Shown here one piece after another: positions 3,271 to 61,310 of a DNA stretch of 64,000 bases. The notes under the pieces are model-generated. The model made no database searches. It had not been told where the DNA came from and saw nothing but the letters and a program-made list of their open reading frames with translations. Each line of letters opens with the position of its first letter. The first letter of the stretch is position 1. Location of the stretch: positions 3,584,001 through 3,648,000 of the forward strand of contig NC_083512.1 in the NCBI RefSeq assembly GCF_032362555.1, given 5' to 3'. The stretch comes from Amyelois transitella (taxonomy: Eukaryota > Arthropoda > Insecta > Lepidoptera > Pyralidae). A program made the position numbers and the translations under genes.

Positions 3271-3776
3271 CATCATCAGTTAGATTGTCGTTGCTGGCAG
3301 CATTTTCTGTAAAAATAAAATCATAAACAATTAAAAAATAGAATGACAAATATAATAAATTGTAAGCCAAAAGTCAAAGTACGGTACCTGGTTCATGAAG
3401 TGATTCGCTAACGAATCCGGGTAATTGGTCACCATCAAACCAATGAAAACGGTACTGGTTATTACTACGTTAGAAGTAACGTCCATCCATTATTTTCCGG
3501 AGTAAAAATAGTTGGTTGTTTTTGATTTGCATTATTCCATATGCTGGTAATGTAATTAGCTCGAATAAATTGTTGAAATAACTCAGTTTTGCATGGTGGT
3601 AAATTGCTTGCGTCGAAATTTCTTAAATTTTTTGGGTTGAAGTCTTCGTTAATGTCAGAAGCAGTGTAATTATTTAAAAACAGCTGAAGCCGGGCAGCAT
3701 TAACGTCAAGTATACCAGCAACATTATAAGTTTCGCAGATAAATTTTTGTACTTGGTTAAAAATATCTTGTTGCAA
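3188..3776 (-). pseudogene. Transposon-type protein fragment, broken
   Basis: Read on the minus strand, 3776-3465 encodes about 103 residues with LPPCKTELFQQFIRANY and, near the end, PENNGW. After a stop at 3465 another frame continues with FHWFDGDQLPGF and VSESLHEP at about 3440-3390. A plausible intron (GTACCG donor near 3389) then leads to an acidic tail, LTDDEDDDLSGQYRDLINDE, ending at 3188. I recognise this layout (LPP, RANY-x-W, NGW, WFDGDQxP, acidic end) only as a type of uncharacterised protein that travels with transposons, so no function is assigned. The frame break at 3465 and the missing N-terminal part say it is defective. The acidic tail lies inside the left arm of the inverted repeat and is duplicated in the right arm. 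Confidence 0.55.
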
Positions 3777-3813
3777 GTTTTCATCGGTAAACGATTCTGC
3801 ATCTCCGAGGATC

Positions 3814-4637
3814 AGGACGATGACTTGAGTGGACAGTATAGAGATTTAATAAATGATGAAAATTCAAATGATTATTTTGATGATGAAGATAATTAAGAGA
3901 CAATAAAATAATAATTCAATTGATTAATCATAATTAATAAATTTCCTATTGAAATTATTATAATAGATATATTTTTTAAAATAAAATAAAAATCATTCTT
4001 TTTGAAAGGCTATTGCTACAAAAAAAATCATTTTCCCCTATTTATATGCAATATATTATATTATTTTAAAAATGATTAATTATTATTTTAATTATAAATT
4101 TCATCGTATTTGAATAGATATGCAAAAATATGAAATTGAAAACAGTAAGTACTTTTCAAATATTAGATATTTACTCTGACGCGCATGCGCATTGTGCTAT
4201 CGCGCTCATACTCGAGGCTGAGTAATTCCTGTGTTTAAGGGGTGTTTGGTCATTACAAACTGTCTGACTGATTTAATACAACTTTGTAATAGTTATCTGA
4301 ATAACTTATATAAAAGTAAGACATTTAAAAATAAATTAAGTTAATTTTTTTTTGATAGAGCTTAAAAGCGTCTGACATAAGTTCTGGCGCATGGAAAGCG
4401 TCTGACTTCTCTGATATGACTTCAGAGTAATATTCTATAAAATATATATAAAAATCAGTCATATAAATTTAAGTTAAGTAACTGTGATTTTTAGTTACCT
4501 TTCTCGCCTGGTACCTGCGCAGGTGTCACCGGGCAAGTCTCACAAACATGCAGGTATTAAAAGTACATTAAAGACTACTGAGAATCGAAAGATCTATTCT
4601 TTAGAAAATAAGTTGTGTCTTACGGCTCTGGGATCTT
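3814..4637. repeat. Right arm of the long inverted repeat
   Basis: Reverse complement of 2447-3270. On the plus strand it contains a second copy of the acidic tail of the transposon-type protein, DDDLSGQYRDLINDE ending DDEDN and then a stop at about 3895. The whole structure (two 824-bp arms and a 543-bp spacer) is a foldback-type element or an inverted duplication of one element. Confidence 0.9.
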
Positions 4638-7600
4638 ACTATCGTATCGTATTGTTAGACCAATATTTAGACAACTAATGTTTGGACAGCCAAGGTTTAG
4701 GGATAATTTCTCAGGCCATCATTCGCCATGTTATCTTACGGACTCTTAGTAAAAATATTGGTTCATTACGTACCTACCTATTGTAATAATTTATGTGAGA
4801 TTTTCCTCAGCAAGTCCATGCGAAATTTGTACTACATATATATAATACCTATTAAACAATGTGAAAGTCTGATTTTAATAAAATCAAACTCTTCTCTCCT
4901 TTTGCCTGGAAAATTTATAAATTTGTTAAACGATTCGATGGAATTTCTTACCGCTAGACGAAAATTAAAAGGTATTTTTTTAATTTTATTAAACCAGACC
5001 ATCTGTAGAACAAAATCGGTTAAGTCGTTTTTAAGCTAATCATAATTTTGTGAAAAATTTAAGTGGACGCGAGTTCTGATTTCACAGCGAACGCCAAATG
5101 ATATCTGCCTCAATTTTTTAAATAAACTGGATATCAATTAATGTTTAGATTACTATTACTTATGGTTGGGAGACAAAGCAACCTACATGATTAAGGGCGC
5201 AAACAAATAAGCCCAGGTGTGACCCAGATCCTTCAGGACTATATATATAGGAATCAGGAAAGGTGGATGTCTTTATTACACGTTTTGTTTACAGAACTCT
5301 GACCTTAAGTAAACTTTCACGTGTTGTAATTTTACGCAGTGTTTGCGCGAGAAGGACATTAATACATACCTACATACAAAGCACGCCTCTTTCTTTTCAC
5401 TTGGACAAAAATAATAATAAATAAACATTGGTCAAATCACATAGACTTTTGCTTCAATCACATTTGTCAATGTCTCTCTACTCCTGAGCTGACCTTACAC
5501 TAGATAGAAAGTCCCCAATTTGATCAAGCTACAGTTCTGCTTATAGACTCCCTTAAAAATATAATGTTTTCCACATAACGAAAGAGGCGTGATTTTATGT
5601 ATGTATGTATAACGAAAGCAGTGTTTTAAAAAAAATCTCCGTTCGTCAATTTTGTGATAGTTTATATAATTCGTCTTCGACATCAGACTAGACTATGATA
5701 GTAGTCTTCGACATCAGAATAAACTATTGTAGGGTAGAAAAAAATCATTGGAAGGTGGCCGAAGGACTGTATTATGCAAATCAAATCGAAATGAGCACGC
5801 TTTTTTAAATCTGATACCACGACTGGCTTTGAACACCACCTTATGATATCTGCTTCATACCTACGCCACATTTGCTACATAACCCCAAGATCCTTTTATG
5901 TACTTATATAAATGAGATTTTTTTACATAGAACTAGTTTTGTTGGGGATTGTTATTTAAATAATCGAGGGACGCGCTCCACTGAATTGCAGGTTTTTGGA
6001 TAAAAAGGGAAATTGCTTTTTCAAACAACTGACAAAGAAATAGCTACCTACGTATGTAAATATTGTCTGTAGGAATATGAGTTCTCTATATATAACCGGA
6101 AACTACACTTACTCAGACCTGTTATAGACTAATAGTTAATTGTTTAGTATCCTATTACCGTGCCAATTTATATAGCCATAACATTTCACGATATCAAACT
6201 AAAACGAATAACATCACATTTTATCTCTAAATGAGTAGACGCAGCCTACGTGTATTATAATTCAATAGAGACTGCAGTGTGTGTTGTCTTTATTGATATC
6301 GATAATACAAAGTAGGAATTCTAGCTTTATCATAATTAAATACGTTTGTGTAAACCGCATTCATCTCTATTTAAAAGTTTTGGGGCATTGCTTGAAGTAA
6401 ATTTATAAAAGACCACTACTTCCTTTTTCCACAACCGATTTTGACGAAACAAAGTTTTGACAAATTGTTGTAAAACCGTTAAAATCCGTAGACTAATTTC
6501 GAAGTAATAACGTAATAGACAGAAAGCCAAAAATTAAAAGAGTGTTTTCTTGGTTTCACTCGATGTTTACTGTCTGTCTGATTATATGAATGTTTTGATA
6601 AATATAACTAATTGGCTTAAATAAAAATCAATTACATTAATTAATAGTTTCGTTTCTGTTCCGAATAAAGGGAAAACTTTATACTCTCCGTGGACTGACT
6701 TTATTAAAGTACCCCCGTAGAATTCTAAACAGGATTGATATTGCGTGTGGCGGTAGATTTCAATATTGTGTCCCCCTTTTAGCCGGCTGCAGGAATGGGA
6801 AGAAATAAATTTATTATTTTTCGACCATGTGTGTGTATGTACATGTACATATCGAAAAGGTTATGTGAATGATTTTTTTATTCAGGTTTAGTAATTACTA
6901 CGCCCGCGTGGAATTAAATATTCCGGTAAATTCCGTTGCCCCTGGAATTTTGAGGAATCCTCTCTTAGTGCATCCCTATGCCACATAGGATCCTGTATTC
7001 AACATTTTAAATCTCTAGGCAAACTTAAGTAGCGGTTTTTTAGTGCGTTAAAATGTCATACAACAATTTTCCTGCTTCATTCTTTTACTAGTTGTTACCC
7101 ACGACTTCTTTCATTCTCATCTCTGCTTGATCTCGGTTGCCTATCCACAGAAGTGATTGGTGGCCCGGGGCCCGCCTTCCGACTTTTCCCTCCACTTCGG
7201 CCTGCCCCTTCTACCTGGACCCGGCGGTAGCGATATGACCAGAAATTTGTTCCCCTAAGTGTCTACAATTTTCCGCAAGGATGGCTTTTGTCTCCTATGT
7301 CACGGACATGAAGGCTTCCGTAGACATGGGAGTTCCTCACGCGGCCCTTCCGTGATACTCCACACATCCATCGCAGCAGGTTCATTTCCGAGACACGCAG
7401 GTTTTGCTTGTGCCGTACACACACACACATATACATAATCCATACAAAGTTTCACATTCGTAATAAAAAATCTATTAACATCATCATTAAAAAATAATCC
7501 CATTTCGTCGCACCCCCACGTCGTCGTATCGCTTATGTATTAGGAACTTAAAATAAATAAGCCATTTTACGTAAACAGTATTTATGCGTTCAACGTAACG

Positions 7601-10600
7601 TTACTTCCATAGGTAATTGGAAAATGCTACGCACAAAATTACCCTGAAATAAAGTATGATCCCGCTTAAGTAAGATCAATTCGAACATAGTATTTTAGTA
7701 TTTTATTTTTTGTATTTTTACAAATTTGTTTTGACATGTATAGCACAGTTGGCGGACTTACTGCTAGTAGCATAATTTACTCCTCTCCGTTACAACCACG
7801 GTTAGCACTCTCAGAAATGGACCAAGGAAATAGGATATAGCTAGAAACTAGAAAGTTCAATGTTTGTATAACATACAAAGTATTCATATCATATCTCAAC
7901 CTACACCGGGTTAAAATATTAAAATATTTCAAACATAGTTACCATACAAGGTACCACATTTATGTTATTGTTCGGTAAAATATTCAAGTTGTATAAAAGC
8001 AAAACAAAAACTAATATTACGTTTTGTAAGGCCGCTTACCTGCTGGTAAATATTCACGTCTCGTTTCGGCACAAAACAAGCTCCCACAGAATAAACAGGA
8101 GCAAATAACAATTTATCCCTTGTTGGAAAACACTAATATAATATCATAAATAATATATTGTTGGATAACTCTAACTTCATTTCATTTCTAGTCAAATTTT
8201 GTTTTATAATTTTTTAACAATAATCACAAAGTTATTTATAAATTCTCTCTCATAGGTTCATACTTGCAACGCTTAATCCAGATTGCGCTCGGTCCTAGTT
8301 TTGGTTAGAAAAGAAAAGAAATTTGTTTGAAAAAAAGATTACCATCCGATATCGACTATCTTTCCTTGCGAATATGATACAATAGTTGTTGGTTCATTTT
8401 TTTTTGTAGGTACTTTCCTCCAACGATATTTATAATTCCTAACCAGTCCTTATTATAATATAGCAGACGTTTATTGTGCATATTACTCACTATAGTCCCA
8501 CATACAATCTTTGTTTCAAAGTATACACTATTTGTATAACTTTATCTTCTAATCACCTATCTAAGCCCCCAGTAACAGCCCGAAGCTTCAAACTCGCTGA
8601 GTAACGAAATATTTAAAAATCATTTATAAATTGACCTAACCTTAATTATGTTGTTATTGTCATCTATCGACAGACAGCCCTATGGCGCCGCCTGATAAGC
8701 TGATAAGCCCACGTAAACAAGGGACGCGCGCGGCTCGACCCATTTGACACAATCCAACTATTTATATATAAATAATCAGTTAACTTATTTCCCCTACGAC
8801 CCGTGATAATAGTTGAGTCATTTGCGAAAGAGTTTGTAGTAAATAGTTGTTGCCATGGCCGATTATCGGGACAAACACGTGCCGTGTACATAAAAACAAA
8901 CAGTTTTGTAACCGGTGTTATAAATAAAATAAACGGACAACTGCGAATTTGTATTTATTAGTAGTAGTTACGAAATTAGTGAGGCTTCTGTTGGTTGAGT
9001 TTCACTTCAAATTTTCTTCTTAATGAACTACTAACTAACTTTATTACCTACTAGCAAATTTCTATCTATTCAACACATTTTTCTCATATTTATTCGTTTG
9101 CAAATTACGAACGAACGATTCGGATTATATATAGGATAGCATAGTCTACGGATGTTTTGTCTCACTATGCTAGCATACGAAGAAAGTCGCTTTGCCTAGG
9201 CAAAGGTCTTTCATCAATCGTCTTCACTCACATGTTTTTCGTGGTTGCTCAGCCGCCGCTGTTGTCCCGGTCACATCCTCAACCCTCTGAAGAGGAGCCT
9301 GAACCATGGATTGGGTGAGTCAGGTTACTACACGAGGCTATTTCGCATCGGCTACGTTCGAAATCAAATTTCGCAGTTATGAGAACAGGATTACAAACCT
9401 TACTTTTCAACATGCAGTTAGCCTAGCGTCTGAAATATACGAATATTTAAGTACCTATATTATCTCGCAGTGCTGTTAGTGGGCATGACACAGCGAAATA
9501 GCGTGCACAGCAGAACCGTTGGTCGGAAATAAAGTACATAGACATGTCGTTATTATAGAGAAGTATACAGAATACACTAAGTCTTGGAAACCTATTGGTA
9601 TTTTGATAGATATTATACTTATTATATACGGTCAATTGTGGCAAAAACTTGGCATTGGTTGGAAATAATACAAGTAATTCGTATCGTATGTTTTCACCGA
9701 TATTTAAACTTGAACCCCTTTAAGGGAACCTTTCTGTAAGGGAACTTCGATTGTTTCAAATATTAGTAAGATATTTGGAACTAAGTTCTTGTAACTTATA
9801 ATTAATCTACTTACTAAATTAAATCACTGAAATTTCCAGGAATTATTCAATAATCGGTAGATTTCGTGTTCTACTTTAAGAAGCTTAGAAAATAGTGTGA
9901 TTTATGCGATGTCAGCAGTCATCCTCCGCCTTGGACGATTAACTTGAGTGGTTCCGAGTACACACGACTGCACACACTACGTTACATTAAGGACTATCTG
10001 AACGCAGACGTCGATCTATCTAGACACCGTAAATGTATTTACATTCATATACATCGCGAGACAAACACGTGGCAAAATGGTGAATAATTGACTTATCGAA
10101 ACTCTTTCATTACCCGTGATCATCAATAACTGAAGTATTATCGTAAGATACAAATACTCAAAGATCGTGCTGTATTGAGCTGTATCGGTGAAATCCTTGG
10201 CTGATATAAGGCACAATGGGATAAACCCTTATTCCGCTCTGTTGGACTAAAGTCTAAGTCCTGCTGTAAACGGCAGAAAACACTTGAGACTATTGATCTT
10301 GCGGTATCTAGCTAAATTTATGTCCGTGTATCAGTGGATAAATCGCTGGGTTTAATTTGATTGATACCTCTGATTGCGCACGAGGGACCACCTGAACTGT
10401 GGATTGAAACTATCGTGAACATGTTTATACGTGACGCTGATGAAACGGTTTAAATCAGTAGATACGTTACGCTGTTTAATTCTTGAATTAAACAAACCCC
10501 TGAAGCTACGTGAGCATATGGCTACATAAATGTAGCCTATTTTAATCATTGTATTAGAATTTCTCAATGAAATTTCATAAAATCGCGAATAAAATGTTTT

Positions 10601-11600
10601 AGAATAAGATATTGAACATTATGTCCCTTTAATTCCTCGGCAGTTGCTTTAAAAGCTGCAAAAGTTGTCAGTTGTCTGTACTCATCTGCTTAATCGTTAA
10701 AGTTACAAATACCGTTTCTATGAACTGTAAAATTTAGAATTTTATTACTTTTATCGCAAATTAATTTTATACAAAGTTTCAACTGCTCAGTTAGAGAATT
10801 ACCTATTAGTAGCTTTTAACCGGGGTAAGATAATTGTGATGCTCACTGTACATTGACCAAACGATCCTTTATCAGTCAGGACGATATTTAAATAAAAATA
10901 TGTTGGTAATAAACGGATTTTGTTAATGTCTGTGACCTCCCAAGTCTATTTTAAGATTTTAGAGTTCCGTTCCGTATCGCTATCACTGTTGCTATGTGCA
11001 CTTGATACTATAGAAAATATAGACCTCTAAATGAAATGTTTACTCCTTAATTACATACTTTATAAATATATGTTGACGCCTTTGCTTGGTGGTAAAGTGT
11101 AATAATATTGATGTGTGCATTTATACTTACTTTATCGGTTAAATTTGTTTTAAACATTCCTTTAGTTAGGGATGGAGTATGCAATAGTTGATATTTTAGT
11201 TTACTTTAACATGTCAAAACTTACGCATATGGACCTCCCTAAATTGGTGGAGATTTTGTACTAAAAATCCTTTTTTGTTTTCAAACTGAAAATTTGGGTG
11301 TCATGATTTATTATCTTTAATGGGAAATTATGGGACCCTTACGGAATTTCTCATGACAATCATTAATCAGACAGAAATCGATTGCACTTAACACTTACGA
11401 GTACTTTGCTGCGAACTAGAGGTATCTACCTGCCTATAAACTTTTTGTGACAATTTATCTCACTGATGGCAAAAACATCTCATCGAAATCAAAACATACG
11501 ACGGGGTGAGAATTTTTATGCAAAAACGTTAAGAAAATTGTGTACGGCTGTTAATTTTAATGGTTACAATGACTGGCCTCCCTAAAAGTAAAATTTTCCA
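4638..11600. other. Intergenic, no convincing gene
   Basis: No open frame here shows a recognisable domain, signal peptide or splice-consistent exon chain. Repeat debris is visible. LINE-tail fragments occur around 5370-5400 and 5578-5610 (AGAGGCGTGATTTTATG followed by TATG repeats), and a GC-rich patch at 7130-7230 resembles retroelement 3' sequence. A short CA run lies at 7417-7430. Around 9240-9350 a dispersed repeat (GAAGAGGAGCCTGAACCATG, then TACACGAGG) recurs in other forms near 16350, 24440, 27640 and 32060. Confidence 0.5.
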
Positions 11601-11603
11601 GCC

Positions 11604-11783
11604 TTAAGGTCGATCCGCACATGACAGTAGCGGCACGTGCCATACCGTAACGTAGTGAAAAATGACATAGTTGCCTGCCGGCCGACATCAGCATCATTGA
11701 CACGAGTACCTACGAATAGCGTCGTACAAAATGTATGCCATATCTTTTTTCACTGACACTGTTATGTGCGGATCAGCCTTTAC
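11604..11783. mobile_element. Small inverted-repeat element (MITE-like)
   Basis: The left end reads TTAAGGTCGATCCGCACATG and the right end CATAACAGTG in reverse, giving GTTATGTGCGGATCAGCCTT on the plus strand. These are terminal inverted repeats of about 24 bp with a few mismatches around a 130-bp non-coding middle. The size and lack of coding sequence fit a non-autonomous DNA transposon; the superfamily is not determined. Confidence 0.65.
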
Positions 11784-12426
11784 ATTACCTGGCATAACAT
11801 TATGTTACTACGAGAAGGTATTGACCTTAAGTTAAGTAACCTTGACACAGTCCCATCACAAAGGCTGTATTATTTTTACAATTATGGAATCAGCGAATCT
11901 CATCAAGAATTTATATTTAGAAGTGGAAGTACTTACAACTGAAAATGTTGTTGTTCCAAACAAATTTCTCTCACCGCCCAAGCGACGGTCATTGTTAACA
12001 ACATATAGTTTTAAATAGTTTATTTTTGTGTAAAATTTATTTCTGTATGGTTAAAAAGCAGATGCATGAGGGTGTTCAGGGTCTCTATCCCTTTCGTCTT
12101 TGGGTGTTCCATCTTACTACCTTCAGCTGTTAAGGTCGGAGATCGAAAAAAAACCAATAAGTTGTGGAGTAGCCACATATTCACTATGCAGTGCCGACAC
12201 CTCACCTTAATTGTCACTTACACTGCGCTTGTTCATAGACCTGGTAACGGGCTGCAACTGTAACTAAAGGATGAAACAAACAAAATGAAATAACGACATT
12301 TCTAAAAGTTCCTTAGCTAAATCAATAATTATTGTTTAGAAGAAATCTGTTATCTCATGTTTTGTAAACGGTCTTATCGATATAAACAAGTTTTAAGTAA
12401 CACCGTACTCTGGACCAGAGCGAGTC

Positions 12427-12463
12427 TATTTTTAGCCGCGCACTCTTATGCGGGGTCCATTCG
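12427..12463 (+). promoter_or_regulatory. Candidate core promoter of the insulin-like gene
   Basis: TATTTTTA at 12427-12434 is followed 32 bases later by CCATTCG (A at 12459), which fits an insect initiator. The spacing is what a TATA box and initiator should have. It would give a 57-base 5' UTR before the ATG at 12516. Seen by eye only; AT-rich sequence makes chance matches easy. Confidence 0.4.
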
Positions 12464-12515
12464 TCAGGTAACGGCATCCGGAAGACCACGCAGTGGGCTC
12501 CGCCAACCAGACACC

Positions 12516-12545
12516 ATGGCGACACGAGTGGAAACACTCTACGTT
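12516..12545 (+). CDS. Insulin-like gene exon 1 (start, signal peptide)
   Basis: The ATG sits in a good context (ACACCATGG). It encodes MATRVETLYV and is followed directly by the donor GTACGT. Joined in phase 0 to exon 2 it completes a signal peptide that exon 2 alone lacks. An in-frame stop, the TAG of the acceptor, precedes exon 2, so a spliced upstream start is required. Confidence 0.7.
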
Positions 12546-15159
12546 GTACGTTTTTATTTGTGTTCTTTTTTTTAATTTGAACGTTCCACGGTCCTGGATA
12601 CGGGGCCTTTGAATTTAAGAAGCAACTTTCGCTTTTCAAATTGTGTTAACGTTTAAATTAAAAATGTGTTTGTGCAATTTTTTTGTTATTAGTGTTCCAT
12701 TTTATGTTTTAGAAATGCATGCTGGTATCAAACTTTAAATTTTGAAGTGATTAATAAATCAATATACATATTATATTTCATTACAAGTTACGTTGGGTTG
12801 CTTAGAAAATTTTGAAATTTAAATTCTTTAATTTATATTTTAATTATTATGCATTATAGGCTCGGCAAAACTGCAACTACTTTCTTTAAAACGTGTAACG
12901 TTTAGTACCTAAGTCTGTTAATGTTAGAATTTGAATGTAGCCATAAAAAACAGTTTTCAATTTTAGGTTTTGATTTGAAATTTTACAAACAACTTTTTCC
13001 ACTTTATGCAAGATATTTAGATTAACTAGATCAGAATTATAGATAAATATAAACCCATTTATACATTTCCTAAGTCTCAGTTAATCACTACGATTGCATA
13101 AGAGGCTTACCTTAATAATAACTTGTCTTAGATTGGCAAGTTTTTGCCTCTTTTTCTAATTCCATTTGCGTGATTAGAAATGTTCCGTATACAATATTAA
13201 TCCTGTCCCGGTCGTATGTGTGTTACTTATAATATTTTGTTATTCATTTATATAATGTAATGCTAACATATTTGTTCAAATGAATTTTAAGAGAAGCCTT
13301 TTTTAAATCAAGCGTTATTTTTCTTACACCCTTAATTCATAATGCAGTTTTTATAGGAAGACAAAGAGACTTACTTTATTATTATTATATCATCGGAATA
13401 AAATAAATAACAACCACAACGTCTTAACTTCTTATTTTGTTCTAGGTGTTAAACCTTGTTTTTATATTGAATAAAAATTATTTACCGTTTGGTAACGTGT
13501 CAACAATAAATTGTAATAGAAAAAATCATCAACTGATAATTTAAGAAAAAAAGAGTATCGGGTTTATTCCATAAAGGTTGTTCACAGCCCACCAAACAAA
13601 AAGATTCTCCGTAGGACTTAATTTTTTCCTGAAACTTGTTGAGCAATGATGTTAGCATCAAACCAATGTGAGTTGGGGCTGACGTAACCTCTTCCATATG
13701 GGAACAAATAATTCACCTGAGATTGCTTGATTGACACAATCTCATAACACCTGTCTTACCCTCTTTGATATGCCTAGATATAACGTATCTTTTGACTGAT
13801 GTGAATGTAAGCAGCTGCTCCACGTAAGGAGAAAATTATTTAAACATATTTATGAGCACACCCCCGGAAGGGCAGGCAGAGACTACTTACTCTTCATCTT
13901 TCTATTCGACAGGATCACTGCAAGGACACTGTTTTATCCACTTCATCAATCTTTAACTTGAAAATGACTGTTTCGCTCTTTATTGTGACGTAAAACGGGA
14001 CAGCGATAGATTTTTTTTTTAAATGGCGTCACTCGTGCCATGCTACCGGGGCTGTTTTAATCAACTTACAAAATTACTGTTTTCAAAGATTAATTGTTCG
14101 CTTGTACATTGTTTTCGTGGCACTGTATGCTAGGCAAAGACATACAAACATATTTCTTATTTATTACAAGTCAGCTTTTTCCATTTTATTATATATGTAT
14201 AACGCCTAATAGAACAACTGAGAACATCCAAAATGAATGATACAAGTTGTATTAATATATATTTTTTAATATTTTTCTAGGTTTACATTATTCTTCTTCT
14301 ATGTAGAAACAACGTGTTCGCCGTGGAGCCAGTCAATTACAAGATCAACGACACTATACTAATCTGTAGTCGCTGGTTGGGTAGGACTCTCGCGAATGTC
14401 TGCGACAATGATTACAAAATTGTCAAAAGGGATACTTCAATATTAATGGGTAAGAAGCCTTCAAACAAAAAATTAAAAATTCTTGGCCACTTTATATAAA
14501 GTTACTTAATTTTTAATATTTTTAATATACTAATAAAGTTGATTTTACTTTAAAGAAAATTATAAAGTGAAATCACGCCTCTTTTCCAAAGGGGTAAGTA
14601 GAGATAGAGACCAAATATTTTCATTTGCAACATCCTACAACTACGTTACACCCACATCAATCTTAAACTTCATCCACGTTTATCATTGTCTTCATGCAAG
14701 ATCGTCGGTTCAACTGATATTTAGAATCAAACAATAGATTGGAAGTAATAAAATAGGTGCTTATCTATTGTTTGTTTAAAGAGTTACAAACTTTTACCCG
14801 CAGCTTCGTCCGCGCGAATTTAGTGCCACCTACAAAAGGTGAAAGGCTTCTTTTGGTTTTAAATATTAGTTGGTTCCACTTGGAGCCTGGGCCGATAAAA
14901 TTTAGGTTTTGATCGAAGAAAAGATCTAAAAATGTATAAAACTAAATATGTTTTTATTGTTACAGAAAAAATGGCACCAAAAAGCGTTCAAGAGCAGAAA
15001 ACTAAGCAGCGTTTGCTCGAAAAAGAGCGCTGGCGCCGATTCCGCCGTCAGATTGTGTCCGAGTGCTGTGACAATCCATGCACAGTCGGCGAAATCCTCT
15101 CGTACTGTCCCAACGACTCCAAAGTCGTCAGAGAAAACCCACAATTATTCGAAAATTAA
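12516..15159 (+). CDS. Insulin-like (bombyxin-like) peptide precursor, 3 exons
   Basis: Secreted hormone precursor of 130 residues joined from 12516-12545, 14281-14449 and 14966-15159. Total CDS is 393 bases; introns are phase 0 and phase 1, both GT-AG. Residues 1-24 are a signal peptide with the core YVVYIILLLC and a likely cut after NNVFA. The B chain follows with Cys39 and Cys51, 11 residues apart as in insulins (CSRWLGRTLANVC). A KR site lies at 59-60 and a basic RFRR at 91-94. The A chain starts QIVSECCDNPC and ends LSYC114, keeping the CC-x3-C-x8-C pattern. Bombyxins have very similar chains (B: CGRHLARTLADLC; A: ECC..PC.V..LLSYC), so the family call is strong. Odd points: Ser replaces the usual Gly after the first B-chain Cys, and 16 residues (PNDSKVVRENPQLFEN) extend past the A chain. 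The receptor is inferred to be insulin-receptor-like but is not shown by the sequence. Confidence 0.88.
13978..14060 (+). repeat. Dispersed repeat copy 1
   Basis: AAACGGGACAGCGATAGATT, then GGCGTCACTCG and CCATGCTACCGGGG. It is a diverged relative of 16680-16760. It lies in intron 1 of the insulin-like gene. Confidence 0.5.
14281..14449 (+). CDS. Insulin-like gene exon 2 (B chain)
   Basis: The acceptor is ATATTTTTCTAG and the donor is G|GTAAGA. It encodes the end of the signal peptide, the B chain with both cysteines, the KR processing site and the start of the C peptide. It ends in phase 1, the usual intron phase in insulin-gene C peptides. Confidence 0.85.
14574..14720 (+). repeat. LINE-derived fragment in intron 2 of the insulin-like gene
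   Basis: AATCACGCCTCTTTTCC, AGGGGTAAGTAGAGA and CTTCATGCAAGATCG match the element at 30500-30620 with decay. No coding potential. Confidence 0.6.
14966..15159 (+). CDS. Insulin-like gene exon 3 (C peptide, A chain)
   Basis: The acceptor is TTATTGTTACAG. In phase with exon 2 it reads EKMAPKSVQEQKTKQ, a basic stretch, the A chain with four cysteines, the C-terminal extension and TAA at 15157-15159. AATAAA signals at 15655 and 15788 could end the transcript. Confidence 0.88.
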
Positions 15160-15889
15160 GACGTGCCCGACTTACACGGAGTATTATTATTTTTAGTTAC
15201 AATATGGACTCTTAGTAACTGTTAAAGAAAATTATTGAAAACATCTATACCTACCTGATACCCGAGGATACCTGAATGTAGACAATATTTTCAAGATGTG
15301 TAGGTACATATACATGGTGTACATTGTTTATATTTTAAGACGACGCAGAAAAAATGCAAAGACTGTGTGGGCCCCAATTTTTATCTAGTTATTTCAAAAA
15401 ATAGAATGTCGTTAAAGACATATTTATCACTACATCTTTGCTTGAGAAAACCATTCTGTTGTTCGTTTTGAACTTGATTATTGTATACTTTTCACTCAAG
15501 TGTATTTGTGAAATGTTTATACCTACATATTGTTTACCTGTATTTTTGTAACTTAAGTAGCCAAAAATGTTCCTTACTAGGGCACTTAGTGCCGTTCAAG
15601 TCTATTATTAAATTTATATTATATTTAGCTTTGCACGGGTTTAAATAATTGAAAAATAAATTTTTCAATTGTCATTGGAGATTAATGTATTATTATTCCT
15701 TACATAAAAACTGTATACCCACTTTTCTTTCGTAAACAAAATGATCTTACAAAGACTCATACAATTATTGGAATATTATGGATAAATAATAAAATGCTCC
15801 TTACTGAACCGAACATTTTTTAATTTCCCGTGATTAAATTTTTAAGCAAATATGGATTATTATTATAATTTAGAAACTTAAAGAGATAA

Positions 15890-25000: not shown

Positions 25001-28000
25001 TTAGAAAAAAAATCTCTGCAGCTTCTAATTTTAATTTAGGCAAAGAAGTTAGCCTATTTCGTTTTAAAGGCCCTGAATATTGTAGGCCCTGAATAGTGTA
25101 AAATCGAAATAATTTATCTTTTTTACGTTAAATTCAAGAATTCCAGACACAACATTATTTCAACACAATCTAGGAATTTCAATTATTTGACAGGGTATCA
25201 GGTTTCCGCACCACAGTGTCACCTATATACTCGTAACATGTACTTACTAGTGATTGACGACTCAAAAATTGACATATGGAAAAGGATAGCTTACGTACCA
25301 TTCTGGCCTTTGACCTTAAACTCCATGGAGTCCTCCCTCCTCCAAGTGATGGTGGGCTGGGGGGTGCCGGCTGCATCACAGTGCAGGGACACATTGTCCC
25401 CTTCTCTAACCATCACCTCACCATTACTCCCACTGACGATATCTGGTGGTACTGCACAAAAACTATATTAATGTAAACACGATTCAGTCTGAACCGTGTG
25501 CTAGCAACGTGGAATTGGAAGACTCTCGTTTTATTGACTGATATATCAGTTGTAAATTCGTACATTATAGTACCTGGGTGACCAAGTTGTGCTCTGTGGA
25601 CGTCCGAAAAACCATCAAAACCAGTATAAACAAAATAATCACCAAATTGCGGTACGAAAGACAAATTCGAAAACCACTGTACTGTGTTCAATAAAATGAA
25701 GTCAATACTTATGGAGAAAAAAAAATCTCGTTTAACAGCACTTAAAGGATTACATTCATTTACTGCTTAATTTATTGTGCTCACCAGCGATATGAAGATG
25801 GTGTGTCTGCGTGATCATAGGCTCTGTATTGACCTGACACATATAGTCTCCAGCGTCAGACAGCCGTACGTCCCTTATGGTTAGCGCCCACACTTGGGGG
25901 TCCCCCCGGATGACCCCCACTCGGTGGTTCTTCGTTATGACGTGGGGACCAATAGTTAAAACAGTTTGGGTGTCAACGCGTAACCAAGCCACCTGTATAA
26001 CGGAAAATATTATGTAATTTAACAGTGTACATAAATTAGGATAACAAATGGATTCAATTGCCGTGTGGTTCCTAGCACCAAAAGAAAAAAGAATAGCACC
26101 ACTTCCATCTCTCAAACAATCAATGGTTGTCGTAAAAGGCGACTAAGGCTGATCAACTTGGGATACTTCTTTTACGCGATGGACTAGCAACCTGTCACTA
26201 TTTGAATCTAAATTATATCATTAAGCCAAAAACAGCTCAGCGTGGTTTTTCATTCTTTCGGGACTGTCTACCCCACAACAGATATAGACGTGATTATATG
26301 TATGAATGGATTAAATTACAACCTTTATTATTATTATGAACCATTAAGAATTCCACATTATGCCTTTTGCAATTTATCTGGCAAAACATGATGTCAGTTA
26401 CAATCTTAATTAATTTTGTGTTTGAGCAAATATGAGATGTTAATTGAAAATATTACGGCTTCCGGTATCCCCAAGCGGGTAATATTTTTAATTTACGACA
26501 CAGAATTGTGGTGTAAATTAGAGCAGCAAAATTCACGGGATGATCCAGTAAAGAGCTTAGCAACTTTCTTATTTATTATGTGACTTTTGAGGATTACACA
26601 TCAGGGAAATTAATAAGTTTATCCAAAACTCGGTTAATATTTTTTTAATTTTGATTAACAAGTACTTACATTTTATTTATCGAAGAAGGGGAATGGTTAC
26701 ACAAACAGTTTCCTAAATATGTATGCATCACACATATCACGAATATATCACGAATATCACGATGTTTCTTTCTAATTTTAAATCATACATATTGTTGTTT
26801 ATGTTGGCTTTGTCTACCCTGCAAGGGATATAGACGCGACTAAGTGTTTATATGTATGTAAAGTAAGTTCAGTTTGGTATGGTATGGTATGGTAGCTCAA
26901 AAGCTCAACTAATTTAAACGGATTTATTGGTCTACTATCAAAGTCGACCCCTCGGAATGATATCATGATTCAAATTGAACAGAGCCTATTATTTGTTGAT
27001 GCTCCGAAGCCCATACAATCTCTTCCTAATCAGCCTCGCACAAACGACCCTCAAACGAATTAATTCCACGGTCATTTCGCCGAATCTGACTGATTAGCAT
27101 TTAACGCCTTTATTGTGATCACAGAGCAGTGAAGAACCGACACGTGCCCTACAGCGCATTTTTGTTGCTTTGTGCTTGAATAGTAAAATCACACAAGTGA
27201 CGATATAAATAAAATAAAATGATACAATATTAATTGTGATGTTTATTTTTTGTTCACTTGACCGTGATTGATGACGAAAAAAAATTTTTTTTTGTAAGTA
27301 TATTGATTGGCGCCTTGAATAATTATGTTGGTATACACACGAGTTCTTATTGGCAATAACGCATTAAGTTATATATATATATATAATATATGGGATTCCA
27401 ACATACGCATTAAGTTGGAATCCTATATATAAAATATCATTAATTATAATTCAATTTCGTTCATGTAATTTTCCTTCGGCTGAACATCAAACGTTTTTTT
27501 AGATCCTATTGAAAAAATATATGCAGATGCAAGTTTGAATGGAGTGAAAATATATCGTAAAGAAAAGATGAATATATAATTCAAAATTATAAAAAAATAT
27601 AAAGTTATTTCTTCTTCCTCCTAGGTTTAGTCCCGGTTCCTCACCACTCTGGAGAGGAGACCGGGGTACGCCTTTAACCATGGATCCTGGATTATGTGTG
27701 TCACGTTTTTACACGAATCGACTCCAATATGACTCAATACTTACTGGGGAACCTAACACGTATAATATGATGAATTCCTCACGATGTTTTCCCCCGCCGA
27801 GGAAATTCGAGTTTCCTTCGTTTTGAACTCTGACCTTTACTTTCAAATCAATTTTAGTTTCAACTTTATAACTAACAAACCTTAACGTATGTACTATTTC
27901 CATTAGTTAAACTAATAGTTGCCATATATCATTATCGGTAGCAAATGCGTTTCCATTCAACATAGTACGGTAACATACGGTAGAAAGGTTCAAGAGAATA

Positions 28001-35418: not shown

Positions 35419-37297
35419 CTACCATTCTTGTGGTGGTTTGAAGCACATTTCTATAGCAAAGTATAGACTGGACACCAACCAGCCTATCGCTAAAAACATA
35501 AAACACGCTGAAAAATGATCGAAACCAAGCGGTGTTATGGCATATCCTGGCGGATGCTGAAAGAAATAATTGGCTTGATCCAAATATCGAGCATAAAACA
35601 TATCAGTGAAACCGGCTTCCACCAAAACTTTTAATATTCTATTAATCGCCGGTATGAACGGAGAAAATTTCTTAAAGTACAAAACAGTAGGGCTGATTAC
35701 AATTTGCTCTGGAATGATCTGAAGATGCTTCGATCCATTGTTTTTTGACAGGTGGTGTATTACTGATGCTTTGTTTAAAGCAATAGCAAAATTTATATTC
35801 CCCTTCATAACTTCCACAAGCGCATCAGAAATTTTATCAGATTTCACCGGTTTCCAATTTCTAATGATATCTTCCTCTTCTGTATAATAGTCTCTCAACG
35901 ATTTTTGACCTCCATATGAATATCCGCGCGCTATAGCATCTCGAATATCAGTGAAATAATCATCATAGTAAGTGGTTTTCAGAGTATTAAAAAGAGTCGC
36001 TTGATATGCACTTCTCATCACAAAGGAAAACCATATCCAACTGTAGACTATAACTTTAAGCGCTGATCTGGACGGCATTTTTGAAATGGACATCCCCAAA
36101 AATATAACCACTGATCTAAAGAGCAAATTTGATTTAAATCGAGCAATATTCAATGGTTTTCTGATTCTGTTCCATATTTTTGTTTTGATAGAAGCACCAG
36201 TAATTATTATCAGAATAAACATTGCGAATAATACAAGTCTCGTATACATTTTTAAAGGACGGAAAAGTTTTTCCCATGTTGGTTTAAAGTCTGGTAATCG
36301 CGTGGTCCAAACCATTTCCATGGAATAATAGGGGAACGATATTTGAAAATTGCCATATTTCGTAGGAGTTAAAGGTACAGAGGCCATAGATGCATGGACA
36401 CGTTTGTTGAAAACGTCTCCCAAAGACCCTGTCCAGTTGTTATCTACACTATGTCCCCACTCTGTCTTTTCGACGGGCAACCTAATTTTTAACGTAGCGT
36501 TTAAAATAGATGCAACAAGTTTTATGATATCACCATCTGCACCATATGGCTCTTTGTTGTCATCGTGCAAATACATATACGGGGGTTGATGTATGGTCGA
36601 TATATAAAACGAACAGCCGTAGAAGTTGTCCAACTTTTCTGCAAAAGCTGTAAGGCAAGAATGGTTTGAACATCTTAAATCAATACTCATTTCTTCAGGG
36701 CTCTTATTTGTACATTTATCTGGTTTCATTGGATAATATGTAAGTGTAGTAGGTTCGTCTTTACTCTCTGTTGGTCGGAGAAATACAGAGTTCACCATAA
36801 ACACTTGGGATATAGTTTGAAAGACCTCATCTTGATCACATCTTTTGTGATCGTTATTTGCGCAAACAATAATTATTCTTGCCGAGACGTCATAATGCGA
36901 TTTTGCAAGCCACGCGAGTATATGTGCCAATTCGTTGGAGTCATGGCCGAATATTACGAACTGGGTTATTTGTACACGATTTTTCGGTATGAATTCCCCA
37001 AATTTCAGAATAACAGGTTTGCTGTAGCTGCACAAAAAGGCTTCGACACAAGCAACACAACGCAGTGTGTCAAATATAACAAGAGTGATAAATCGCCATT
37101 CAAAATTATAATATGCAATTTTTGCTGCCAATTTTCCCAGGTTCACCATGACGGTTGAAACATTTTCTTGATTTTTCAAAATAAGATCACATTCTTCGGC
37201 CATACTTGATTTTACTGATATAAATATACCTTCATGAAGTAGGAAAACAATACAATTTAATATGCAATGATGGTAAAATGAAACATACAAAACATGC
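35419..37297 (-). CDS. Divergent ionotropic receptor (IR) 1
   Basis: Ligand-gated cation channel of the chemosensory IR class, a variant glutamate receptor, expected in dendritic membranes of sensory neurons. The long frame holds about 622 residues. S1 lobe: about 226-345 (HQPPYMYL, ADGDIIKLVASILNATL, SLGDVF). M1: about 351-370 (RLVLFAMFILIIITGASI). Pore region: about 388-405. M3: about 410-432 (IVYSWIWFSFVMRSAYQATL, the SYTANLAAF-equivalent region). S2: to about 585. M4: 592-615. At the site of the glutamate-binding Arg in S1 it has Lys (PLTPTKYGNFQIS). There is no ATG early in the frame. A polypyrimidine tract and CAG at 37298-37300 suggest an exon start at 37297 with a short first exon upstream. 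The first internal ATG is at 37203. It is the most diverged of the three paralogues; the subfamily is not determined. Confidence 0.85.
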
Positions 37298-37762
37298 CTG
37301 AAAAAAAAATCTAGCTACCAATTTCACATAATGTTCCATTAACTTATTGTTTGAAAATGCATCAAGCATTCAGCATGATTCAATTGCATAATGGATTATG
37401 AAGTGAATGTATGATTTCAGGGTTGCTTAGCATTCAGAAAAAGTCAGTCTTTGGATATTTATGTTACAATATCAATGAAACAACATGATTTTAAGTTTTA
37501 ATACTGATGCTAATGATTTAAATAATTTTATTTCATATTTATGATTAAGATAAAACATTTATTAATAAAGGTAACGTCCACATTCCGTCCCCATATTAAA
37601 AATAGTCAGTTTTCAAATTTAAACATTGAATTTAATAAAATTACAATTTGGCCATATTGGTTCTTCTTAACGTCCGGGAAAATTTTCAGCTTTCCGGGTA
37701 TTACTACTTATAAGGGCAGTTATCTCTATTTTACGACTTAATTTACTATACCTACTCAGTAT

Positions 37763-39666
37763 TTAAATTAATAACTTGCAACTTGTATTATATTTGAAAT
37801 ACGAAATTTCTAACACGAAAAATGTTGCAGATGTCACCCATCCTGCCATCAGAATCAAATAACAGCCCTTATAATGATCAGCCTTCAATGGGCCGCTGGT
37901 TGTGGCTTCCTTAGGGTCCAACTTTTTCATATAATCTTTGTATGCTTTGTCTACGAATCCACACTCAATCAATAGTTTCAGTATTGCATTAATAGGCTGT
38001 TTAAGCGGGGAGAATTTTTTGAAAAATATAACGGTAGGTGTCTTTATAACTATTTCACTTAAAATATGAACTTGCAGATTTTTTGTTCTAATCAATGTAA
38101 TAGCATTTTCGCCGCTCATGGCAATAACAAATTTTGTCCCGTTTGCTATTTTGTATAAAGTAGGAATAATGTCTTTCGCCTCTACTATTTGCCAATTATC
38201 AAAGACAAACGGGTCATCGATGTAAAAATCTCTTAGAGCTGCTCCTCCTCCAAAGGGATACTTAGCATCGTAGGCATCACGTATTGTTTCAAAACCTGAG
38301 AAATAATAATTACTTCGTAGCACAGGAATGAGGCAAACCTGATAAGTAGTTCTTAGCAAAAAACAATACCACACCCATAAGATTACAAAGGACACAATTC
38401 TTTGTTGAGTTGGGAGTTTTACTAGTGGCAGTCCCATACACACGAGCCAGGAATAGAAAACTAAACTGACTCGTGGTGGCTTCATGCCTAGTTTTTGACT
38501 GATTTTTGACCAGTATCCACTTCGTACAAAATAGGCAACAGCAATAACAAATATAAAACTGATTACTACTGCTGCTTGTGTAGAGGTCTGGACTGGATAT
38601 AGAAGTTTGAATGAGGAAGGTTGTAAGGCTGCCGGATGCGTAATCCATAGAACGTTAGCATAGTAGTAATCTGTGGACATTTGGAACGAAGAAAACCTGG
38701 ACAAAGTTATTGCTGCAGAAGTCATTGAAAAATTAGCAAAATCATCGTAAACGTCGCCAAGAGATCCTAACCATTGTCCGTCTTGATCCAGGTTTCCCCA
38801 ACCAGAACCACGACGCGGATTTGTAACATGAAGTGTTGCATTTAAGGCCTTTATAATAATACGTAGTAAATCTCCGTCTATCCCTGTGGGTACGTCATTT
38901 ATGACAGTCATATAAGGCACTTGCTGGTATATGGACACTGTTATAGGACATCGATACAGATTCTTGAGCTTCATTGGAAAGATTTCATTTAAATAAGTTT
39001 TAGTTTGGAAGAAATTCAGAGTGCTCAACTGCACTGGCCTTACAATGTTGCATCCGTTTATAAAGGGAAAATAAGAGTACCCAAGCACTTCTTCTTTATC
39101 GCCATTTTTGAGAAAAATAACATCTGTTATCTTGTGATCCCATAAAAGTTCTACAGCGTCTGCTTCCTTACAATGTCCTTTTTCTTGCGAGTCGCAAATG
39201 ACAATGTGTTTCCCGGTGTTATCAAATTGGTGTGATTGCATCCAATCCAAAATATAGCCGATATTCGTAACGCTGGATCCAAATATAATATATTGTCTGG
39301 TTTTTTCTGCAAAAGGAGGGTAAAATAGTCCATTTCCAATGATGTAACTTTTCTCATATAAGCATAGTAGATTTTCAATACCATACAGCATTGTTGAATT
39401 GAAGACTACAAAAGTGATGTATCGCCATTCAAAATTTTGGACAGCAATTTTCGTTGCTGTTTCAACGAGTTTATTCATATGGTATTCGGCAGGTAAAAAT
39501 AAACTATGATTAAAATTTGCAGTTAGCATGACGACTGGTGAACTGCAGCCAATCTGTGTCACGTGCAGAGTTATCACGTGATGGTAATTAGTCTGAAACG
39601 AATCTGATATGAAAGTGTTATATGACGTGATCGTTGTGGGCGTATCATCGCAATCTTGTCCATTAA
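37763..39666 (-). CDS. Divergent ionotropic receptor (IR) 2
   Basis: Close paralogue of IR 3 (blocks such as QNFEWRYITFVVFN and GIDGDLLRII are shared). The frame has S1 (YRCPITVSIYQQVPYM, RRGSGWGNLD, WLGSLGDVYDDF), an Arg at the S1 ligand site (AITLSRFSSFQMS), M1 about 334-352, pore (LVCMGLPLVKLPT), M3 (VILWVWYCFLLRTTYQVCL), S2 (FGGGAALRDFYI, NWQIVEA, IAMSGENAITLI, TVIFFKKFSPL) and M4 near the C-terminus. The frame is open up to a TAA at 39683-39685. The first internal ATG (39529) would lose sequence conserved with IR 3 (DTPTTITSYN versus ATPKSITFYD). An exon start at 39666 after TTTAG with a missing first exon is therefore more likely. That first exon was not found. Confidence 0.87.
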
Positions 39667-39860
39667 CTAAATTACATGGTTTTTACCTGTATTTCATTAC
39701 AAAATCAAAATACGTAACAATATTAAAAATACAAGCATAGGTACAATAATGTACATTTATTAAAATTATAACTTGATTGAACTCGATTACATTTTTGGAA
39801 GTAAATTTTATGTAGGTACAAAATAAATACATATAATGAATCTTTAAATATCTACTTCAT

Positions 39861-40062
39861 TTCCCACGGATGTCGTAAAAGGCGGCTAAGGGATAGGCTT
39901 ATAAACTTGGGATTCCTCTTTTAGGCGATGGGCTAGCAACCTGTTACTATATTGAATCTCAATTCTATCACTAAGCCAAACAGCTGAGCGTGGCCTATCA
40001 GTCTTTTCAAGACTGGTGGCGCTAGGGATATAGACGTGATCATATGTATGTATGTTATTTGC
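39861..40062 (-). mobile_element. SINE family A copy between IR 2 and IR 3
   Basis: ATGTCGTAAAAGGCGGCTAA, GGCGATGGGCTAGCAACC, AGCTGAGCGTGGCC, ending in TATAGACGTGATCATATGTA. It lies in the 0.57-kb spacer where a first exon of IR 2 would be sought. Confidence 0.8.
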
Positions 40063-40233
40063 GAAAAACCAAGTAATATATTAATTGTAATTTTTTGTGC
40101 AATATAGAGTTTACAAACGAATATACATACCTATGTATTTTAAAAAAGATACAAATTGCATAAAGCTTAGGATTGTAATATTTTTTACATTGTAACTTAC
40201 CAGCTATCGCTTGGGGTTTGAAGCAAGACAGTG

Positions 40234-42156
40234 TCAGATATGAAAATATTTCGTATACAAAATTTCAAATAAGAAAACTGTAGCTGATATTACCCATCCT
40301 AATATTATAATGAAATAGCAACCCTTATAATGATCTAGTTTTAATGGTCCGCTGGATGAAGTCACCTTGGGCTTCAATTTTTTCATGTTGTCTTTATATG
40401 CTTTGTTAACAAATCCAGATTCTATCAAGGGCCTTAATACTGAATTGATGGGCTTGGCGAGAGGAGAGAACTTTTTGAAAAATATAACTGTCGGCGTGTT
40501 TATCACTGTTTCTCTTAAAATATGAACCCGTAGGTTTTTGGCTCTGATTAATGTTATAGCATTTTCGCCACTCATAGCAAGAACAAATTTCTTTCCTTTT
40601 GCTATTTCGAATAAATTCGGAATTATATCTTTCGTCTCAATCATTTGCCAATTATCAAAAACTAACGGATCGTTAATGTAAAAATCCCTCAATGCTATAT
40701 TTCCTCCGAATGGATAGTTAGCATCGTATGCATCATGTATTGAATCAAAGTCGGAAAAATAATAGTTGCTTCGTAGCACAGATATAAGGCAGACCTGATA
40801 AATAGTTCTTATTAAGAAACAGTACCACACCCATAAAATAAAAATGGCCATAATTCTTTGTCGTGACGGTAGTTTTATCAGCGGCAGACCCATACACACT
40901 GACCAGGCGTAGAAAACTATACTGATCCGTGGTGGCTTCATACTTAATTTTTTACTTATTTTAGCCCACAATTTACTTCTAACGAAATAGGCGACTGCAA
41001 CAACGAGTATAAAACTTATTACCAATGCGATTTGTGTCAAAATTTGGACTGGATAAAGCAATTTTAACGAGGAGGGAATCAAGGCGGCTGGGTGAGTAAT
41101 CCAAACAAGTTTGGCATAGTTGTAATCAACAGACATTTGGAAGTATGAAAATCTGGACACAGTTATTGCTGCAGAGCTCATTGAGAAATTTGCGAAGTCG
41201 TCGTACACGTCACCAAGAGATCCCAACCACTGTCCATTTTCGTCGAGATTACCCCAACCGGAGCCACGGCGCGGATTCATTATGCGGAGAGTTGCATTCA
41301 ATGCTTCCATAATAATACGGAGTAAATCTCCGTCTATGCCTGTGGGGACGCCATCTTTGACAGTCATATACGGCACTTGTTGGTATACGGATATAGTAAT
41401 GGTACATCGGTGCAAATTTCGAAGCTTTATTGGAAACATTTCGTCGTAATTGGTTTCATTGTCATCGTTGTTCAGATTGCTTAATTTAACTGGTCTTACA
41501 TTGTTGCACCCGTCTATCAAAGGAAAATAAGAGTACCTAAGCACTTCGTTTTTATCGCCATTTTTAAGAAAAACTACATCTGTTATTTTGTGATTCCATA
41601 AAAGTTCTACAACATCCGCTTCATTACATTGTTGATTTTCTTGCGATTCGCATATAACAATGTGTTTTCCGGTATTATCAAATTGGTGTAATTGCATCCA
41701 ATCCAAGAGCAAAGCGATGTTTGTAATGTTAGTACCGAATATAATGTACTGCCTGGTTTTTTCGGCGTAAGGAGGGTAATATAGCCCATGTCCAATGATA
41801 TAACTTTTGTCGTACAAACGGAGTAGAGTTTCAACGCCATACAACAACGTTGAATTGAAAACGACGAAAGTAATGTATCGCCATTCGAAATTTTGGATAG
41901 CAATTTTCGTAGCCGTTTCGACTAGTTTGTTCATATTATAATCGGGAGTTAAAAATAAACTGAAATTTAATCTTTCAACAAACATGTTGACTGGTAGACA
42001 GTTAAAGTAACGAAAAGTAAGTCTGACGCAACGATTTGACACCGTGGTAATCAGGCAGATATGCATCTTGTGTAAATGCATGTCATAAAATGTGATTGAT
42101 TTGGGCGTAGCGTGGCAATAATTCTGTAAGTACAAAGTTGGTAATATGACACACAT
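40234..42156 (-). CDS. Divergent ionotropic receptor (IR) 3
   Basis: 640 residues from the ATG at 42156. It has the same plan as IR 2: a non-conserved N-terminal region, S1 with HRCTITISVYQQVPYM and WLGSLGDVYDDF, Arg at the ligand site (AITVSRFSYFQMS), M1 near ALVISFILVVAVAYFV, pore (SVCMGLPLIKLPS), M3 (FILWVWYCFLIRTIYQVCL), S2 (FGGNIALRDFYI, VLAMSGENAITLI, TVIFFKKFSPLAK) and M4 (YFIIILGWVISATVFLFEIL). IR 2 and IR 3 look like a recent tandem duplicate. The ATG start gives MCVILPTLYLQNYC, a weak signal peptide. An alternative is an exon start at the TTACAG just after it, which would match the inferred boundary in IR 2. Confidence 0.88.
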   Translation of the reverse strand: MCVILPTLYLQNYCHATPKSITFYDMHLHKMHICLITTVSNRCVRLTFRYFNCLPVNMFVERLNFSLFLTPDYNMNKLVETATKIAIQNFEWRYITFVVFNSTLLYGVETLLRLYDKSYIIGHGLYYPPYAEKTRQYIIFGTNITNIALLLDWMQLHQFDNTGKHIVICESQENQQCNEADVVELLWNHKITDVVFLKNGDKNEVLRYSYFPLIDGCNNVRPVKLSNLNNDDNETNYDEMFPIKLRNLHRCTITISVYQQVPYMTVKDGVPTGIDGDLLRIIMEALNATLRIMNPRRGSGWGNLDENGQWLGSLGDVYDDFANFSMSSAAITVSRFSYFQMSVDYNYAKLVWITHPAALIPSSLKLLYPVQILTQIALVISFILVVAVAYFVRSKLWAKISKKLSMKPPRISIVFYAWSVCMGLPLIKLPSRQRIMAIFILWVWYCFLIRTIYQVCLISVLRSNYYFSDFDSIHDAYDANYPFGGNIALRDFYINDPLVFDNWQMIETKDIIPNLFEIAKGKKFVLAMSGENAITLIRAKNLRVHILRETVINTPTVIFFKKFSPLAKPINSVLRPLIESGFVNKAYKDNMKKLKPKVTSSSGPLKLDHYKGCYFIIILGWVISATVFLFEILYTKYFHI

Positions 42157-42199
42157 CGGAAATTTAAAACCATACAATCAAAAATAGAGTTACCTGAAA

Positions 42200-45795: not shown

Positions 45796-61310
<15,515 letters not shown>

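Follow-up and report, generated by a model that had tools for sequence, protein, structure and literature searches.

The 64,000-nucleotide stretch of the lepidopteran Amyelois transitella analysed here (contig C8, positions 3584001-3648000, called the window below) contains on its forward strand, at 12516-15159, an insulin-like gene that is intact, consists of three exons and is of an ordinary kind. Judging from its sequence, we consider it quite probable that this is a functional gene for a bombyxin-type insulin-like peptide, with no close second copy detected. An open frame, splice signals, the six-cysteine layout of B chain, C peptide and A chain, and dibasic sites flanking the C peptide are all present.

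The first coding exon (12516-12545) supplies residues 1-10 of the signal peptide and ends at the donor GTACGT of a phase-0 intron of 1735 nucleotides (12546-14280, acceptor CTAG). The second exon encodes the remainder of the signal peptide (residues 11-24, 14281-14322, the cut after NVFA being assumed by eye), the B chain (residues 25-58, 14323-14424), a predicted KR cleavage site (residues 59-60, 14425-14430) and the start of the C peptide up to a phase-1 splice (14431-14449). The second intron (14450-14965, 516 nucleotides, donor GTAAGA, acceptor ACAG) lies within the C peptide, and such a phase-1 intron is a feature of those superfamily genes that have kept their introns. The third exon provides the remainder of the 32-residue C peptide (14966-15042), a predicted RR cleavage site (residues 93-94, 15043-15048), the A chain QIVSECCDNPCTVGEILSYC (residues 95-114, 15049-15108) and a 16-residue C-terminal tail with its TAA stop (15109-15159). 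The RR site ends an RFRR sequence that appears furin-like by eye and is overlapped, just upstream, by RWRR. Once joined, the exons amount to 393 nucleotides and form a single ATG-to-TAA frame of 130 codons plus the stop, with six cysteines at insulin spacing. The initial annotation had proposed three pieces joining in frame through GT-AG introns of phases 0 and 1 into a complete precursor (signal peptide, B chain, KR, C peptide, A chain) whose signal peptide is split 10 residues in; the joined frame bears this out, the split itself with an exon 1 that we grade as likely. Candidate polyadenylation signals, recognized by pattern only, follow at 15607-15660 (ATTAAA at 15607, AATAAA at 15655).

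The precursor matches the Pfam family Insulin (PF00049) with an E-value of 2.2e-8 and 35.4 bits, for a cut-off of 23. The A-chain exon by itself passes this cut-off (27.8 bits), and the B-chain exon by itself gave no Pfam match at E up to 1. Cysteine spacing, B-C-A layout and Pfam score together place the predicted product in the insulin/IGF/relaxin superfamily. Across all six frames, the window has a single occurrence of the A-chain cysteine pattern, at this gene, in agreement with the earlier description of a single copy; in 100 first-order Markov surrogates the pattern occurred on average 0.05 times per 64 kb and never more than once. When the precursor was used as a tblastn query against its own genome, nine matches were obtained at E up to 10, two of which are the gene itself. 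No closer copy elsewhere was found in this search, the next-best match having an E-value of 2.5e-6 and 31% identity.

The genome searched (327,366,114 bases in 33 contigs) holds at least ten insulin-like genes. Genome-wide, Pfam Insulin gave eight matches from 11 scored candidates, all above the cut-off; five span the whole model and three, including the gene in the window, cover its A-chain half only. Two further genes came from cysteine patterns in fetched stretches and from tblastn. Four intronless, bombyxin-like genes are clustered on C10 (2.05-2.08 Mb), one intronless gene lies on C20 and one on C21, and a divergent intronless gene with Arg at B8 (C10:6352303-6352596) scores 21 Pfam bits, below the cut-off. 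Two intron-bearing genes are located on C5, one of them a probable arthropod IGF (aIGF) gene within C5:6413000-6420000.

How close is the gene in the window to the bombyxins? Of the 27 non-cysteine core positions it shares 14 with bombyxin-II of Bombyx mori, whereas DILP5 has 5 of them in common with it and human insulin 6. With bombyxin-II it agrees at 12 of the 20 positions of the A chain and at 8 of the 13 of the B core; RTLA in the B chain is also common to both, and the dibasic borders of the C peptide are those of the clustered Bombyx mori bombyxins. This likeness does not single out the gene, because eight other genes compared share 10 to 15 core positions with bombyxin-II. Unlike the bombyxins, it has two coding introns, Ser at B8 and the 16-residue tail.

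The initial annotation had gone further and suggested that this copy may belong to an older lineage, still carrying introns, that gave rise to the intronless bombyxins. Several observations agree with that idea: the gene retains the widespread C-peptide intron; its closest paralogue by core, in comparisons that gave 7 to 13 identities with the nine paralogues, is an intronless gene (13/27); tblastn with its precursor lists intronless genes and, at E up to 10, neither C5 gene; and the best tree places it on one side with the six intronless genes of the C10 cluster, C20 and C21, though with a support of 8/0. The tree is however undecided, as a topology that unites these six with the C5 gene other than the probable aIGF is not rejected (approximately unbiased test, p-AU 0.314). 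Moreover, the mean core identity to these six genes is 12.67 of 27 for that C5 gene and 10.83 for the gene in the window, a small difference. The C-peptide motif RA...KR, our own unpublished definition picked after viewing the intronless clustered or C20/C21 genes, is found in seven of the ten genes and is absent from the gene in the window, the probable aIGF and C10:6352303. All six clustered or C20/C21 intronless genes carry it; the intron-bearing C5 gene other than the probable aIGF has it too, as well as the WPW that four of the six intronless genes show, and the gene in the window has neither. The initial interpretation is therefore supported in part: a bombyxin-like insulin peptide agrees with the 14 of 27 core positions, whereas the two motifs and, by a little, the core means favour that C5 gene, and the gene studied here is probably not the bombyxin ancestor; we regard an ancestral role as improbable.

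Exon 1 at 12516, although likely, is the weakest part of the gene model. Exon 2 has no Met and is directly preceded by an in-frame TAG (14278-14280), so the start codon must come from an exon farther upstream. At −3 the 12516 exon carries a purine, and its residues open a hydrophobic core, making a signal peptide that is plausible by eye. The exon forms the 3' end of a GC-rich stretch (12415-12545, GC content 0.573, a value reached by 0.26% of 131-nt windows) whose only match in a genome search is itself. A signal peptide divided by an intron is not unprecedented, as one is mentioned for Aedes ILP6 in PMC8276055. We also considered 105 phase-0 candidates within 4001-14270, each running from an ATG to a GT over at most 60 nt. 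Apart from the 12516 exon, two of those that pass a donor score of 0.2 have a similarly high local GC content; both start at 9306, and they would add MDW or MDWVSQ.

Some results weigh against a functional bombyxin-type gene. On a crude donor matrix, the exon-1 donor is mediocre (89th percentile of all GT sites, compared with the 98th for the exon-2 donor), and the 12516 exon has the lowest donor score of the nine candidates that pass. The B chain CSRWLGRTLANVC has Ser at B8, where vertebrate insulins have Gly, and this change is expected to reduce folding efficiency according to PMC8514764. In the ten genes of this one genome B8 is Gly in eight, Ser in the gene in the window and Arg in C10:6352303; superfamily membership of insect peptides was not judged by Gly at B8. 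The L-domain search did not single out the insulin receptor itself in the genome, and the type-C LGR search described below has limits of its own. The Ser at B8 and the weak donor would fit a decaying or unexpressed copy, or a wrong exon 1. Against decay, 130 codons free of stops extend over three exons, all six cysteines are retained, and the gene has diverged from its paralogues and is no fresh copy. We consider decay or a wrong exon 1 unlikely, and a functional bombyxin-type gene still the better account.

A relaxin/Dilp7 or gonadulin/Dilp8-type ligand signalling via an LGR would have the same cysteine layout. Relaxin B chains carry the motif R-x3-R, which the B chain studied here has, and bombyxin-II too. 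The phase-1 intron of the C chain is likewise shared, being common to relaxin, Dilp8 and Dilp7 genes in PMC11863921. The same paper describes for Dilp7 types an extra phase-2 intron that separates the signal peptide from the B chain; unlike them, our gene has no intron there and has a phase-0 intron inside the signal peptide. Its A and B cores are bombyxin-like. On the receptor side, the seven-helix region of human RXFP1 gave ten matches in exon-wise tblastn (E up to 0.01, 22 scored candidates). The two full-length ones score 299 and 318 bits against glycoprotein-hormone receptors, versus 101 and 94 against RXFP1; of the eight partial ones, the five that were read look like ordinary rhodopsin-family receptors by eye. 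Among the seven of ten matches thus covered, no type-C LGR (LGR3/LGR4) was detected by this search with a human query, run exon by exon and without a positive control such as an insect with LGR3 or LGR4. Since gonadulin is reported absent in species without LGR3 in PMC7357564, this result speaks somewhat against a relaxin or gonadulin role, to which we give little credence.

Six matches to the receptor L-domain were found, distributed over C31, C14 and C2. The C31 frame appears EGFR-like by eye. On C14 (C14:8810175-8810501 and around) the frame read has an insulin-receptor-like ectodomain, then a membrane span and a tail that is short and lacks a kinase; judged by eye, it resembles the IRTKL of Veenstra, described for Lepidoptera and Trichoptera, with Tribolium and Tenebrio as a recent separate origin, in PMC7357564. 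Together with the bombyxin-like genes, this frame is the strongest indication within the sequence itself of a lepidopteran origin. The two short matches on C2, in open frames of 92 and 56 residues, are the remaining candidate insulin receptor.

That the gene represents the 5' portion of an aIGF gene, its C-terminal exons having been overlooked, is very improbable: conceptual translations of aIGF genes readily come out truncated (PMC7357564) and the 16-residue tail is present, but on the crude donor matrix all ten GT sites in 15061-15200 score negative, G[TS]VxPx[FY] does not occur uninterrupted in any of the window's six frames (one divided by an intron would escape), and aIGF features are found elsewhere, in the C5 gene at about 6.41 Mb with its GTAAGT site after the A chain. 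About 3.7 kb on from there, an open frame contains GTVSPLL, an imperfect match, since the last consensus position calls for F or Y. The C-peptide intron, of phase 1 both in our gene and in this probable aIGF, and also seen within the C-domain in a comparison gene structure of PMC3745042, is shared; unlike aIGF, our gene has a longer C peptide (32 residues) and no detected C-terminal extension exons.

If the bombyxin-type assignment is right, the precursor would enter the secretory pathway, fold with three disulphides and be cut at KR and RR; in tissues that lack convertases it may instead remain one uncut chain, as described for BIGFLP (PMC3745042). Once secreted, the peptide could signal through the insulin receptor tyrosine kinase to regulate growth or metabolism. 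In this gene the phase-1 C-peptide intron, widespread in the superfamily, would have been retained. The signal-peptide intron may be an old 5' intron, because the two C5 paralogues show acceptor-like sites ending 0 and 15 nt before their ATG; the start codon would then have moved into the upstream exon.

Elsewhere in the window, on the reverse strand, three long intronless ionotropic-receptor-like frames are arranged in tandem at 35419-42177 (35419-37314, 37763-39682 and 40234-42177). A Pfam search with the first and third frames found ligand-gated channel or ionotropic-receptor parts above cut-off in both. The same strand has an Ig-domain exon nearest to Drosophila DIP-theta and DIP-eta (25759-26142), an exon of a Gq-type G-protein alpha subunit (55752-56024) and a 126-residue open frame with no Pfam match at E up to 1 (3465-3845).

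Altogether, these results add an intron-bearing member to the insulin-like set of this lepidopteran and weaken the idea that the bombyxins descend from this copy. Should the peptides with Ser and Arg at B8 prove to be expressed and conserved, they would be of direct relevance to the invariance of GlyB8 in vertebrate insulins and to the misfolding caused by human B8 mutations.
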